Of a stretch of DNA of 6,932 nucleotides, positions 2,294 to 6,764 are shown piece after piece. This stretch comes from Streptosporangiaceae bacterium (GTDB taxonomy: Bacteria > Actinomycetota > Actinomycetes > Streptosporangiales > Streptosporangiaceae): positions 1-6,932 of the forward strand of contig JASHSZ010000545.1 of the NCBI GenBank assembly GCA_030040815.1, written 5' to 3'. Within the stretch, counting starts at the first letter, position 1, and every line of letters begins with the position of its first letter. The position numbers and the translations under genes are program-made. The notes under the pieces are model-generated. The model was given only the letters and a program-made list of their open reading frames with translations. It was not told the DNA's origin and did not search any database.

Positions 2294-2320
2294 ACACCGC
2301 CGGTCAGCGGCCGGCGGTGT
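2294..2320. terminator. Hairpin between convergent DLH and denD ends, probable bidirectional terminator
   Basis: ACACCGCCGG (2294-2303) and CCGGCGGTGT (2311-2320) form a perfect 10-bp stem with a 7-nt loop. It starts one base after the DLH stop (2290-2292), and its loop contains the denD stop (2304-2306), so the right arm is denD coding sequence. No T tract follows on either strand, as is common for actinobacterial terminators. Position at a convergent junction favours termination in both directions. Confidence 0.7.
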
Positions 2321-3314
2321 CGCGGAGGTAGGAGCGGACGACGGCCTCGAAGCCGTTGTCCGGCCTCAGTCCGAGCGCGGCTGCTCTGGTTGTCGCGAAG
2401 CGCGCCGGCCAGCCGCGCACGATGGCCGCGATAGCATCGTCCGGCTCCCAGCCGACCAGGGCGCTGACCGCCGGACCGGCGACTCGCTCGAGCGTCTGCA
2501 CCATCTCGCCGACGGTGACGGTGACCGAGGGCAGGTTGACCGCGGTGGGATCGCCCCACTGCTCCGGCGCTGCCTCCGCGGCGCGCAGCAGTCCTTCGAC
2601 GGCCCGCGCCGGAGAACTGACCGCCACCGCGGTGCCGGGCGGTACCGGGGAATTGGCGCGCAGCCCGGCGAGCGGTTCCCTGATGATGCCGGAGAGGAAT
2701 CCGGACGCCGCGGCGTTCGGTCGTCCCGGCCGCACGGTGACCGTCATCAGGCGCACCGACCTGCCCTGGATGTACCCCTTGCGCGAATAGTCGGCGATGA
2801 GCTGCTCGCCGATGAACTTCTGCACCCCGTAGCTGCTCTGCGGCACGGGCAGCGTCGAGTCGGTGATCACGTCGGGCAGCGGATGGCTGCCCGTACCGCC
2901 GAACACCGCGAGCGAGCTGGAGAACACCACCACGGGCGCGCGCCCGGACTGGCGACAGGCAGAAAGAACCAGCCGGGTACCCGCGACGTTGGCCCGCATG
3001 CCGAGGTCGAAGTCCCGCTCGCACTCCGCGCTCACCGCCGCTGCGAGGTGAAAGACGAGATCAGCGTCGGCGAGCGGGCTGGTCGTGTCACCCTCGAGTG
3101 CACGGACGAGGTCACCCAGCCAGACCGCGACGCGCGGGTCGCGGCTGACGGCAGCAGGCGGCGCGACCTGGTCGAGCAGCGTCAGCCGGGTCACCGCCCG
3201 GCTGGGCGCGCCCGCGACCGACACCGAGCCACGCGCGAGGATCTCGCTGGCCAGCCGGGCGCCGATGAAGCCCGCGCCACCCGTGATCACGACGTTCAGT
3301 GGCGCGTCCGTCAT
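2304..3314 (-). CDS. denD: D-erythronate dehydrogenase-like NAD-dependent epimerase/dehydratase-family enzyme
   Basis: A 336-residue extended SDR that resembles DenD, which oxidises D-erythronate at C2 to 2-oxo-erythronate with NAD+. The N-terminal nucleotide-binding motif TGGAGFIG spans residues 11-18, D48 ends the second strand (likely ribose contact), and the catalytic set is S133/S134 with Y162 and K166 (YGVQK). DenD-like signatures include FHLAAAVS (88-95), ERDFDLGMRANVAGTR (99-114), VRPGRPNAAASGF (194-206) and SGIIREPLAG (208-217), plus the VTVGEMVQTLERVAG stretch (266-280). The ATG at 3312-3314 has GGGGG (3321-3325) at 6 nt. It lies 18 nt after tetR and is presumably cotranscribed with SDR and tetR. 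Usual DenD partners (four-carbon acid kinase, aldolase, isomerase) are not in the window. Family is certain; the exact substrate is an inference from sequence resemblance. Confidence 0.82.
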   Translation of the reverse strand: MTDAPLNVVITGGAGFIGARLASEILARGSVSVAGAPSRAVTRLTLLDQVAPPAAVSRDPRVAVWLGDLVRALEGDTTSPLADADLVFHLAAAVSAECERDFDLGMRANVAGTRLVLSACRQSGRAPVVVFSSSLAVFGGTGSHPLPDVITDSTLPVPQSSYGVQKFIGEQLIADYSRKGYIQGRSVRLMTVTVRPGRPNAAASGFLSGIIREPLAGLRANSPVPPGTAVAVSSPARAVEGLLRAAEAAPEQWGDPTAVNLPSVTVTVGEMVQTLERVAGPAVSALVGWEPDDAIAAIVRGWPARFATTRAAALGLRPDNGFEAVVRSYLRDTAGR

Positions 3315-3332
3315 CGCTGACCCCCGCTCTCG

Positions 3333-3941
3333 CTACGAGCGCAGTGCCGCGCGGCCCGCGATGAGCGCGAGCGTCGCGCGGGCCGCGCTGTCGGCAGCGG
3401 CCCGGACGGCGTCCGGACCCTGACCGTACTCCCCGTCGACGAGCAGCATGGCGTGGCCGTGCGCGGTCGCCTCGGCTGCCGCTGCCAGCGCGTCGGCCGC
3501 GACGGCGTTGCCGTCGCAGATCTGCCGCACCTCGGCGAGGAGAGTGTCGAGCGGTTCCCACGCTCGCTGGAGCTCGGGATACCGGCTCTTGTCGACGCCC
3601 GAGCTGAACAGCGCGTCGAACAACGGGCGGTGCTCGGCCGCGAACCGGACGTACGTGCTGGCCACCGCCGCGAGCCGGTGCTCCGGGGTCGCGGCGCGGT
3701 CCGCTGCGGCCATGGCCATGCCGGTGAACGTCTGCAGCCCTCGCACCGCGACCGCCGCGAGCAGTTCCTCGCGATCGGCGAAGTGCCGGTACGGCGCCGC
3801 CGTCGTCACGCCGACCCGGCGGCTCGCCTCGGCCAGCGAGAACCCGTGCACCCCGCGCTCGGCGATTAGCGCGATCGCGGCGTCAACGAGCGCAGCCCGC
3901 AGGTCGCCGTGGTGATACCGATGGCCCGTCGTGGCTGCCAT
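3333..3941 (-). CDS. TetR/AcrR-family transcriptional regulator, WHG-type C-terminal domain
   Basis: A 202-residue one-component repressor-type regulator. The N-terminal DNA-binding domain begins YHHGDLRAALVDAA (9-22); the helix-turn-helix covers about residues 34-55, with EASRRVGVTTAAPYRHF as turn and recognition helix. The ligand/dimer domain shows YVRFAAEHRPLFDALFSS (97-114) and the following Y121-P-E-L region, typical of the WHG class. The ATG at 3939-3941 lies 4 nt after the SDR stop; GAGGGG abuts the ATG with almost no spacing, so translation probably depends on coupling to the SDR gene. It sits between SDR and denD in one tight unit. By the usual logic of such units it would repress its own operon through the palindromes at 4894-4937 and be released by a pathway metabolite. 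The ligand is unknown. Confidence 0.92.
   Translation of the reverse strand: MAATTGHRYHHGDLRAALVDAAIALIAERGVHGFSLAEASRRVGVTTAAPYRHFADREELLAAVAVRGLQTFTGMAMAAADRAATPEHRLAAVASTYVRFAAEHRPLFDALFSSGVDKSRYPELQRAWEPLDTLLAEVRQICDGNAVAADALAAAAEATAHGHAMLLVDGEYGQGPDAVRAAADSAARATLALIAGRAALRS
3349..3388. repeat. 12-bp inverted repeat in the tetR 3' end
   Basis: GCGCGGCCCGCG (3349-3360) and CGCGGGCCGCGC (3377-3388) are perfect 12-nt arms around a 16-nt loop, within tetR codons for the last alanine-rich helix, ending 35 nt before the denD start. In the tetR-denD transcript it could fold into a very stable hairpin before denD. The arms are pure G/C in a GC-rich gene, so codon bias alone may explain it. Confidence 0.5.
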
Positions 3942-3945
3942 CCCC

Positions 3946-4875
3946 TCAGAGTATGCGGAACGGCACGCCGGTCAGCTGCTCCGAGATCTGCCACAACCGG
4001 GCCTGGACGGCCGCGTCGCGGGCGCCAGCACTCGGCTCCACCCGATCCGGATAGCCGGTGTGGAACCGGCGGCGCAGCCCGTAACGCCGCGGGCCGAAAT
4101 AGTCGCCGCCTCGCGCTGCCGGGTCGGTAGCCGCCCGCAACGCGGGCAGCGCCCCCATCCGCACGTCCTGCACGGCCCAGAAGTTGATGATTCGCGACCG
4201 CGGCTTAAGCAGCGCCTGCTGCAGCTTCGACGCGGTGACGAACAAGTCGGTGTAGACGACGCCGGGGTGCGCGGCGAGCGCGCTGGTCTGCATGCCCGCC
4301 GCCCGCAGCCGCCGGTCGAGCTCGAACGTGAAGAGGAGGTTCGCGAGCTTCGACTGCGCGTACGCCGCTTCGGGCCGGTAACCGCGCTCGCCCTGCAGGT
4401 CGTCGAAATCAACCCTGCCCCGCAGATGAGAAATGCTGCTCATCGTCACGATCCGGGAGCCGTTGGCGGCGAGCAGCCGGTCCAGCACCAGCCCGGTCAG
4501 CGCGAAGTGGCCGAGGTGGTTGGTGGCGAGGGTGAGCTCGAAGCCGTCCGCGGTCCGTTGGTACGGGATGTCCATCACGCCGGCGTTGTTGATCAGCAGG
4601 TCCAGTCGCGAGTACCGAGCGCGGATCTCCTCCGCCGCGGAGCGCACCGACGCTAGCGAGGCGAGGTCGAGCCGCACCACAGCCGTATCGCCGCCGATCA
4701 CGCTAGCGGCCGCTTCCCCCTTCTCGACGCTTCGGCATGCCAGCACGACGTGCGCACCGCGCCCGGCGAGCACTCGACTGATCTGTAGGCCGAGGCCGGC
4801 GTTGCCGCCGGTGACGACGGCCGTCCGACCGGCCAGGTCCGCGATTTCTGCTTCAGTCCACCGCTGTCTCGCCAT
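3946..4875 (-). CDS. Short-chain dehydrogenase/reductase, retinol-dehydrogenase/protochlorophyllide-reductase-like
   Basis: A 309-residue cytoplasmic NAD(P)-dependent oxidoreductase of the classical SDR fold. The cofactor motif TGGNAGLG occupies residues 22-29; A46-C-R48-S suggests NADP preference through R48. L69-D70-L71 and NNAG (96-99) follow, then N119, the catalytic serine at S146/S147 in TMSSISH, and Y172-x3-K176 (YAQSK). The AAHPGVVYTDLF segment after the active site and the variable C-terminal part are typical of the large actinobacterial retinol-dehydrogenase-like group, whose real substrates are mostly unknown. Start: ATG at 4875 with AGGAGGT at 4880-4886; an in-frame GTG at 4881 overlaps that site and is rejected. 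It is the first gene of SDR-tetR-denD, and its promoter region carries tandem palindromes. Reaction direction and substrate cannot be deduced. Confidence 0.9.
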   Translation of the reverse strand: MARQRWTEAEIADLAGRTAVVTGGNAGLGLQISRVLAGRGAHVVLACRSVEKGEAAASVIGGDTAVVRLDLASLASVRSAAEEIRARYSRLDLLINNAGVMDIPYQRTADGFELTLATNHLGHFALTGLVLDRLLAANGSRIVTMSSISHLRGRVDFDDLQGERGYRPEAAYAQSKLANLLFTFELDRRLRAAGMQTSALAAHPGVVYTDLFVTASKLQQALLKPRSRIINFWAVQDVRMGALPALRAATDPAARGGDYFGPRRYGLRRRFHTGYPDRVEPSAGARDAAVQARLWQISEQLTGVPFRIL

Positions 4876-4879
4876 CGGC

Positions 4880-4886
4880 ACCTCCT
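4880..4886 (-). promoter_or_regulatory. Strong ribosome binding site of the SDR gene
   Basis: On the minus strand AGGAGGT precedes the ATG at 4875 with 4 nt between. It overlaps the alternative GTG (4879-4881), which excludes that codon as the start. Confidence 0.8.
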
Positions 4887-4893
4887 ACTGCAA

Positions 4894-4937
4894 TGTAAGA
4901 GATACTAACACCGATGTTAGAGTCAGTAACATCTAAC
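4894..4937. promoter_or_regulatory. Tandem palindromic operator, probably for the adjacent TetR regulator, overlapping the SDR promoter
   Basis: Two 17-bp imperfect palindromes, TGTAAGAGATACTAACA (4894-4910) and TGTTAGAGTCAGTAACA (4915-4931), match at 13 of 17 positions and lie 21 bp apart, two helical turns. Bridging them is the 16-bp palindrome CTAACACCGATGTTAG (4905-4920). The right unit extends to GATGTTA/TAACATC (4913-4919, 4927-4933), and GTTAGA/TCTAAC (4916-4921, 4932-4937) adds a further nested pair. This AT-rich stretch stands out from its GC-rich surroundings. Minus-strand TAGTAT (4902-4907), with a weak TTACTG (4924-4929) 16 nt upstream, is a promoter candidate lying within the palindromes. 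It fills almost all of the 57-nt gap between permease and SDR. TetR binding is inferred from architecture and neighbourhood. Confidence 0.78.
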
Positions 4938-5829
4938 CGCGCCTGCTGGGGTCGGCCAGGAGAAGGAGTCCGCGCAGGCCCAGGTCGAGTGTGAGGCTGA
5001 CGGCAGCGATAGCGATGAGGCCCGCGAAGGCGAGCGAGAGGTCGAGGTAGTCGCCCGCCTGGGTGATCATGTAGCCGAGTCCGCTGGTGGCCGCGATCAT
5101 CTCGACGGCGACAATGCTGCTCCAGGATCCCGCCATGGCGATGCGCATGCCGGTGAGAATGGCCGGCAGCGCCGCGCGGATCTGCACGTGCAGCAGGGTG
5201 TAGCGGCGGGTCGCACCGAGGGTGCGTGCGCATAGCCGCAGGTCCTCGGGGACCTCGCCGAGGGCGGCGACGGTGACGATGGCCATCAGGGGGGTGACGC
5301 CCACGATGATCAGGATTTCCTTGGGAAGCTCGCCGATGCCGAACCAGACGATGAACAGCGGGATGAAGGCAAGCGGGGGCAGCGGCCGGAGGACCTCGAT
5401 GACGGGGTCGACGAGGTGCCGGACGACCTGGCTGGCGAACATGGCGGCGCCGAGCGCGATGCCAGCGGTCACCCCGATGGCGAAGCCGATCAAGACCCGC
5501 TGCGTGCTGATATACAGGTCGAACCACAGCGGCTTGCCCTCCGCCGGGTAGGGCCGGTTGAGATAGTGCACGAACTGCTGAAGGGTCTGGATGACCGACG
5601 GCAGCGCGACCTGGTCATCGATGATCATCGCGGCCAGTTGCCAGAGCACGATCAGAGCGCCAAGCCCGCCTAGGCCGGTCAGCAACCGGGTCGTCCGGGC
5701 GCGGCGGCGGGCGCGGCGGTGCGCGAGTAGATCCGCACGCTCCTCGAGGTCGTCGCCGGGCGGTCCGGCTGGCGCGTGCTCGTCCTCGCGTACCAGGACT
5801 GCGAGCGGTCCGGATTGCCAGCTTGCCAT
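4933..5829 (-). CDS. ABC transporter permease, SsuC/TauC type (nitrate/sulfonate/taurine-like family)
   Basis: A 298-residue inner-membrane permease of a binding-protein-dependent importer. A charged, Arg/Glu-rich cytoplasmic N-terminus of about 45 residues is followed by roughly six hydrophobic segments (about 48-70, 110-132, 150-166, 172-190, 225-245, 264-290). The conserved EAA coupling loop is seen at about 191-228, with G205 in EDLRLCARTLGA and the following IRAALPAILTGMRIA. RPLPPLAFIPLFIVWFGIG (148-166) is a hallmark of the SsuC/TauC group. The ATG at 5827-5829 overlaps the ATPase stop as TAATG and has GGGAG 6 nt upstream, so the two genes are translationally coupled. It is the last gene of the transporter unit. 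Its TAG at 4933-4935 lies inside the outer arm of the palindromes before the SDR gene. Substrate cannot be inferred: the family covers sulfonates, nitrate, thiamine precursors and others. Confidence 0.92.
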   Translation of the reverse strand: MASWQSGPLAVLVREDEHAPAGPPGDDLEERADLLAHRRARRRARTTRLLTGLGGLGALIVLWQLAAMIIDDQVALPSVIQTLQQFVHYLNRPYPAEGKPLWFDLYISTQRVLIGFAIGVTAGIALGAAMFASQVVRHLVDPVIEVLRPLPPLAFIPLFIVWFGIGELPKEILIIVGVTPLMAIVTVAALGEVPEDLRLCARTLGATRRYTLLHVQIRAALPAILTGMRIAMAGSWSSIVAVEMIAATSGLGYMITQAGDYLDLSLAFAGLIAIAAVSLTLDLGLRGLLLLADPSRRG

Positions 5830-6764
5830 TAAAGTCTCCCTTGAGTGCCGAGCGGGCCGGCGACGGCAGCAGGGCTGCGCGGGCCGGCCAGCGCGGCGCG
5901 GATCTGCCGCTTTACCGCGATGAATGCCTCGGTGTCGACGTCATCGGCGTGCCGGGGACGCCCGAGCGGGACGTGGATTACCTCCGTTACGCCGGGCGGG
6001 TGCCCGCCCATGACGGCGACCCGGTCGCCGAGCAGGACGGCTTCCTCAATGTCGTGAGTGACGAAGATGATCGTGATCTGGTACTGATCCCACATGCTGA
6101 GCAGGAACTCGTGCATGCGCACCCGGGTGAGCGCGTCGAGCGCGCTGAACGGCTCGTCCATGAGCAGCAGCGACGGCCGGGTGGCCATCGCCCGGGCGAA
6201 CGCGGCGCGGTGCCGCATTCCCCCGGACAGCTCGTGCGGGAATGCGTCGCTGAACTGAGCCAGTCCTACCGTCTGCAGTATCGCGTCGGCATCGGCATCG
6301 AGTTCGGGATCATCACGCTCGTGCAAGCCGGCGGCTCGCTGGGCCAGGGGGCCGAACAGGACGTTGTTCTTCGTCGTCAGCCAGCCGAACAGCATCGGGG
6401 TCTGAAACAGCATGCCCCGGTCGTGCGAGGGGCCGGTGACCAGACGGCCGCCGACGGTCACCGATCCCTCGTCACTGTCCAGGGCGCCCGCGACGATGCG
6501 CAGCAGCGTTGACTTGCCGCAGCCCGACGGCCCCAGCAGGCAGACGAGCTCCCCGGTCGCGATGTCCAGGCTGACCCCACCAAGCGCGACGGTTCGGCGG
6601 CCGCCGCGCCGGAACGCCTTGCTCACCGAGTCGATGACGACGTGCGCCGCGCGCTCGTCGCCGGAATGCGGGTCGGCCTGCCCGGCACGGCCGGTGGCTC
6701 CTATCGCCCGGATCGCGGGAGCCACCGGCCGGCGCCCCGGCACGGCGCGGGCGTCAGCAGTCAC
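5829..6764 (-). CDS. ABC transporter ATP-binding protein, SsuB/TauB type, with N-terminal extension
   Basis: A 311-residue cytoplasmic ATPase that powers the importer. In order: Walker A GPSGCGKST (78-86), Q-loop Q121 in LFQTPMLF, signature LSGGM (179-183), Walker B LLLMDEP (199-205) with catalytic E204, D-loop SALD (207-210) and H-loop H237. After the signature the usual RQR reads RHR (184-186). The nucleotide-binding domain proper starts near residue 42; the first 40 residues, rich in Ala, Arg, Gly and Pro, look unlike the family and are encoded across a 14-bp inverted repeat. The GTG start at 6762-6764 overlaps the binding-protein stop by 11 nt, with AGAAGG 9 nt upstream. No better downstream start is visible before the fold begins: the first GTG codon, at V47, would remove the first strand. 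The stop couples to the permease as TAATG. Confidence 0.93.
   Translation of the reverse strand: MTADARAVPGRRPVAPAIRAIGATGRAGQADPHSGDERAAHVVIDSVSKAFRRGGRRTVALGGVSLDIATGELVCLLGPSGCGKSTLLRIVAGALDSDEGSVTVGGRLVTGPSHDRGMLFQTPMLFGWLTTKNNVLFGPLAQRAAGLHERDDPELDADADAILQTVGLAQFSDAFPHELSGGMRHRAAFARAMATRPSLLLMDEPFSALDALTRVRMHEFLLSMWDQYQITIIFVTHDIEEAVLLGDRVAVMGGHPPGVTEVIHVPLGRPRHADDVDTEAFIAVKRQIRAALAGPRSPAAVAGPLGTQGRL
6688..6731. repeat. 14-bp perfect inverted repeat at the start of the ATPase gene
   Basis: CGGCCGGTGGCTCC (6688-6701) and GGAGCCACCGGCCG (6718-6731) are perfect 14-nt arms around a 16-nt loop. In the minus-strand transcript they form a very stable hairpin beginning 23 nt after the binding-protein stop and covering codons 12-26 of the ATPase, within its atypical N-terminal extension. 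No T tract follows. Confidence 0.75.

Follow-up and report, generated by a model that had tools for sequence, protein, structure and literature searches.

A tandem pair of palindromes ahead of an SDR-tetR gene pair is probably the autoregulatory operator of a TetR_C_33-type repressor

The DNA analysed here (the window) is a stretch of 6,932 bp in which an ABC ATPase gene, an ABC permease gene, an SDR oxidoreductase gene, a tetR gene and a D-erythronate dehydrogenase-like (denD-like) gene follow one another on the minus strand, with a 57-bp gap between the permease and SDR genes. The best NCBIfam match of the ATPase gene (5829-6764) is PhnT2, followed by SaoA and the nitrate and taurine types, and that of the permease gene (4933-5829) is TauC, in all cases below the cutoff. 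The SDR gene (3946..4875) matches PF00106 and NF004846 (380 bits, cutoff 268), and direct reading places an AGGAGG ribosome-binding site at 4881..4886 on the same strand, 5 nt before its start codon (4875). The regulator gene (3333..3941), which encodes the proposed operator binder, starts 4 bp past the SDR stop codon, and its product has both the TetR_N (PF00440; 41.7 bits, cutoff 24) and the TetR_C_33 (PF13305; 35.7 bits, cutoff 26.8) domains. The denD-like gene (2304..3314; NF043036, 374 bits, cutoff 325) starts 18 bp past tetR and is a possible third member of the operon; it has no match above 80 bits in four SDR-tetR relatives, which are short loci (L091, L092, L093 and L110). Elsewhere in the window are a dapB gene at 659-1402 (TIGR00036, 187 bits, cutoff 122) and, adjoining it, a dienelactone-hydrolase-like gene at 1519-2292. 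Homologous metagenome proteins exist at 80-89% identity, and the regulator has no match in a plasmid collection at E 1e-20.

Two 17-bp dyads lie within the 57-bp gap, occupying 4894-4931 and ending 18 bp short of the start codon of the SDR gene. The SDR-proximal candidate operator dyad is at 4894..4910 (minus strand; TGTAAGAGATACTAACA, or TGTTAGTATCTCTTACA on the SDR coding strand) and the SDR-distal one at 4915..4931 (minus strand; TGTTAGAGTCAGTAACA, or TGTTACTGACTCTAACA on the SDR coding strand). The distal dyad is the core of a 21-bp palindrome (4913-4933), and a single base pair separates it from the stop codon of the permease gene (4933-4935). A previous sequence-only reading of the locus had marked the interval 4894-4937, which extends 6 bp beyond the distal dyad and over that stop codon. 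Its description of two palindromic 17-bp units with 13 of 17 positions identical (hand count) and starts 21 bp apart was confirmed by direct reading, and gene order and profile matches likewise agree with its placing of the SDR gene directly after the dyads and of a TetR regulator gene next. Five of the six arm positions are palindromic in each unit, and 14 of the 38 bases over 4894-4931 are G or C (hand count).

The pairing of the dyads is rarely matched in shuffled DNA. The strict form TGTnAn7TnACA occurs at two places in the 6,932-bp window, both of them the dyads. Dinucleotide shuffling of the whole window, repeated 200 times, gave a mean of 0.04 occurrences, and 5,000 shuffles of just the 65 bp around the dyads never produced two strict ones. 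A test that presupposed no motif, requiring two 17-bp units 18-26 bp apart, each palindromic at 5 of 6 arm positions and alike at 13 or more of 17 positions, gave one match in the window and matches in 3 of 200 whole-window shuffles.

The hexamer TAGTAT, at 4902..4907 on the minus strand, can be read directly inside the proximal dyad, where the sequence-only reading had taken it as promoter-like. It is a plausible, although unproven, extended -10 (TGT-TAGTAT; TGTTAGTAT). The hexamer is thus present, but a promoter role gained no support from a consensus scan of 3300-5900, in which no sigma-70-type promoter was found.

Because only 1 bp separates the end of the ABC genes from the distal dyad, read-through from them into the SDR operon is possible, and the repeats could act in such transcripts as a hairpin or as a stem that masks the Shine-Dalgarno sequence. 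The leader RNA of the window folds better than its shuffles (z -3.13 for 70 nt and -3.10 for 48 nt), and the AGGAGG of the SDR gene can pair with the proximal dyad and sits in a stem (window 4865-4912). However, no comparable stability is seen in the two closest relatives, whose entire leaders of 80 and 88 nt give z -0.98 and -0.65, and the upstream neighbour in both, a helicase-like gene read by eye, is oppositely oriented. Palindromic DNA folds as RNA anyway, and no terminator-like site was found at the dyads. We therefore regard a hairpin or terminator as a weak reading of the repeats and a function in RNA as very unlikely.

Loci encoding relatives of the regulator, at least 80 of which were among the matches listed, were scanned for the window motif (TGTTAGn5CTAACA with up to two mismatches), as the sequence-only reading had suggested. 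Among the matches listed, 13 of 80 TetR loci contain the motif, and in 11 of these 13 the match lies at most 1,150 bp upstream of the TetR start. Two perfect copies are found in an Aestuariivirga metagenome-assembled genome, and pairs occur in TetR loci of Conexibacter, Actinocatenispora and Nocardia. At this stringency the motif is absent from 67 of the 80 loci among the matches listed. A looser core, GTnAn7TnAC, was scored over 110 listed loci, redundant ones included. Core dyads number 52 in 41,235 bp (1.26 per kb) between -350 and +30 of the TetR start, compared with 129 in 948,234 bp (0.14 per kb) over the rest of these loci. The contrast is understated, since the second figure still includes the dyads found near -1000 ahead of two-gene operons.

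Once 23 near-duplicates and 5 loci whose upstream DNA was short had been taken out of the 110, a non-redundant set of 82 remained, in which the upstream 1,150 bp were scored and for which 76 loci supplied downstream control stretches. Among the loci listed, a core dyad is present upstream in 19 of 25 relatives with at least 50% identity to the regulator (controls, 1 of 23), in 6 of 8 at 45-50% identity (controls, 1 of 8) and in 24 of 49 below 45% (controls, 2 of 45). Tandem dyads follow identity more steeply, with 17 of 25, 3 of 8 and 2 of 49 in the same three classes of listed loci, and none was found in the downstream control stretches (0 of 23 for the relatives at 50% or more). In L093 the tandem is degenerate only. 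Six of the 25 listed relatives at 50% identity or above have no core dyad, among them L065, which is 67% identical over 79 residues. The comparison with relatives upholds the earlier proposal of a double TetR operator. The dyad stands before the first gene of the regulator's run and is conserved with the regulator across genomes, as is characteristic of autoregulatory operators. Three mycobacterial loci (L017, L025 and L027), together with other mycobacterial loci, have, in place of a tandem, a single conserved dyad, TGTGAATAGCATTAACA or a close variant, at about -55 of TetR.

The dyads accompany the regulator and not the SDR gene. Of 24 SDR relatives retrieved at E 1e-90, 3 have a TetR gene downstream and 21 have none in the fetched flanks. 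Both dyads are present in two of the former, and the third has only a degenerate 18-bp tandem; among the 21, a single locus has one weak single match (3 mismatches). The idea that the site belongs to the SDR gene was accordingly rejected. In a more distant SDR-TetR pair (L110), one dyad is clear and the other degenerate, and in Conexibacter (L009) the dyads lie between the TetR gene and a divergently oriented SDR gene related to that of the window. Other dyad-bearing TetR genes neighbour an aldo/keto reductase (L165, L005), another SDR (L007), HlyD-type proteins (L012, L015) or a DUF2306 protein (L032). These observations bear on the idea that the dyads are bound by some other regulator, for instance one of the upstream ABC transporter genes, for which the 1-bp distance between the distal dyad and the permease stop codon might speak. 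Since the dyads of relatives accompany TetR amid differing neighbour genes and are almost never found where an SDR gene lacks TetR, we consider that there is little chance of this being the case.

The sequence-only reading had also drawn on the exact 21-bp phase of the dyads and on a third palindrome between them. Two dimers might bind cooperatively on one face of the DNA, 21 bp being two helical turns, or one dimer might alternate into the bridging palindrome. The latter (CTAACACCGATGTTAG, 4905..4920, assigned to neither strand) is present as described, with perfect 6-bp arms around a 4-bp centre, and consists of the inner half-sites of both dyads. The spacing of dyads in relatives argues against the first of these possibilities. 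Over 111 listed loci, redundant genomes included, 38 successive core-dyad spacings could be counted, of which 29 are 18 bp, two are 19 bp and two are 23 bp, with one each of 20, 21, 22, 24 and 25 bp; the single case of 21 bp is the window itself. The two closest relatives compared as DNA (SDR 66% and TetR 73% identical) have the 18-bp spacing, and a 21-bp-phased pattern was not found in a phylum-wide sample of 396 genomes, whose TetR content was not checked. A spacing near a whole number of helical turns is thus not conserved, nor is a geometry that would place both dyads on one face, so that the phase argument for cooperative binding fails and two-turn phasing was discarded as a conserved feature. 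As for alternative registers, any two TGTTA..TAACA dyads that adjoin will form a bridging palindrome between them. Its half-sites point outward, and the distance between its arms shifts with dyad spacing in relatives. It is therefore a geometric by-product and not a separate element, and the alternative binding registers that had been proposed for it are unsupported. Taken as a whole, one-face or alternating binding is a possibility that we judge doubtful. Overlapping dyads with a 6-bp offset occur in three alphaproteobacterial loci, at about 669 (L031), 695 (L067) and 682 (L074) bases past the TetR start.

The 21-base units of the window can also be compared individually with those of relatives L091 and L092. 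Pairing the units in swapped order gives 15+18 and 17+17 matches of 42, respectively, and pairing them in order gives 15+13 and 13+15. The proximal unit of the window resembles the distal unit of these relatives, and vice versa, which is a hint that dyad units may have changed order between the window and its relatives.

Operators of characterized TetR-family proteins provide a scale for these dyads. As given in the excerpted text of PMC4150764, single dimers bind operators of 15 bp (TetR) or 17 bp (SimR and DesT), and dimers of dimers bind elements of 22 bp (CprB), 28 bp (QacR), 31 bp (Ms6564) and 32 bp (CgmR). The window dyads resemble the TetR, SimR and DesT sites in length, in the one dimer that each would bind and in that the regulator gene is part of the unit under its proposed control; they differ in the TGTnAn7TnACA sequence, in standing in tandem and in having an oxidoreductase as the first gene of the unit. 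With QacR, CgmR, Ms6564 and CprB they would share two dimers per regulatory site, possibly binding cooperatively. A pair of dimers could even overlap as in QacR or CprB, on opposite sides of the DNA: the usual 18-bp offset would set neighbouring dimers on different faces, and the same excerpt describes CprB binding as cooperative without contact between its two dimers. However, QacR- and CprB-type operators are single elements of 22-32 bp, whereas here two dyads of the single-dimer size are complete and separate, at a distance that varies from 18 to 25 bp in relatives, some of which have a single dyad only. Overlapping binding of this kind is improbable in our view. Among PDB sequences, the regulator profile best matches 3ON2, a probable transcriptional regulator (E 3.5e-20), to which the window regulator is related over nearly its full length; the likeness concerns the protein only and says nothing of the operator. 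We found no description of the operator of this TetR subfamily in listings of open-licence papers. PF13305 appears there in one paper, in the context of gene-cluster association, and the main text of PMC4482099 does not contain the letters TGTTAG, TAACA or TTAGT.

We extended the analysis to whole genomes. Within one family, 30 of 341 genomes encode TetR relatives at E 1e-30 or better. An 18-bp tandem pattern, sought in these 341 genomes, gave a single match in each of 17 of them, and the reversed control gave none. By coordinates, all 17 places lie 0.98-1.03 kb upstream of a TetR relative. Because the pattern was composed after some of these loci had been viewed, this result attests to specificity and is no independent discovery. 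The strict pattern is absent from 13 of the 30 TetR-positive genomes, some of which have variants, either GGTnA dyads (L114, L118 and L119) or one-base departures (L101). Among the 396 phylum-wide genomes, the 18-bp pattern was found only in the already known G063, and a flexible TGTTA tandem pattern was found, among 69 and among 81 genomes, only in the already known G004. The single dyad (up to one mismatch) was rejected as a genome-wide marker, being no better than its reversed control: it occurs at 13 places in 8 genomes, compared with 21 for the control, and is absent from three of the 8 genomes. Of 11 such places examined, 7 are beside a TetR relative and 4 have none in the 3-kb locus; in Aestuariivirga and in one Nocardia genome, both places are at the TetR locus. 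The signal is carried by the tandem arrangement and its position. A Pseudonocardia genome (G008) contains, besides L083, a second TetR relative (L088) that likewise has a TGTTA-type dyad close by, so that more than one regulator per genome may share the motif.

In summary, the paired palindromes are real and probably make up a functional tandem operator through which a TetR_C_33-type repressor controls its own operon. We put the probability at roughly 0.85 that the TetR-family protein specified by that operon's second gene uses the two 17-bp dyads ahead of it as tandem operators, at which two dimers would repress jointly until released by a ligand. Each dyad would take one TetR dimer, and because each is sized like the single-dimer operators of SimR and DesT, two of them would probably lie next to each other, covering the SDR-tetR promoter and 5' leader. 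The enzyme and the regulator, and perhaps the denD-like gene too, would thereby be repressed together, and the repressor would come off on binding a small-molecule ligand, which may be a compound that the oxidoreductase uses or makes.

The relatives further suggest how the subfamily may read its sites. Residue 52 of the recognition helix may set the outer base of the half-site, with arginine giving TGT and lysine GGT. Among loci whose dyads were scored, GGT half-sites are found in 3 of 3 with lysine and in 1 of 46 with arginine, counts that are uncorrected for kinship, the three lysine loci being probably related to one another; L013, another locus with lysine, shows a mixture of outer bases and was left out of the scoring. 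In four loci (L114, L115, L118 and L119) the recognition helix has YKH in place of YRH, and GGTnA..TnACC dyads occur there, up to three in tandem. A broader proposal, on which we are evenly divided, is that TetR_C_33 (YHHGDLR-type) repressors of Actinobacteria and Alphaproteobacteria share a portable operator code made of modular TGTnAn7TnACA copies, placed in tandem with free spacing of 18-25 bp, with the regulated genes being swapped, and that the residue-52 rule and the reordering of units hold jointly with it.

An autoregulatory tandem TetR operator is in itself a well-known, ordinary kind of switch. The relatives form a natural series in which the dyad is kept and the spacing between dyads varies, and the analysis proposes a concrete operator for this TetR subfamily, which would allow regulon prediction for uncharacterised oxidoreductases.
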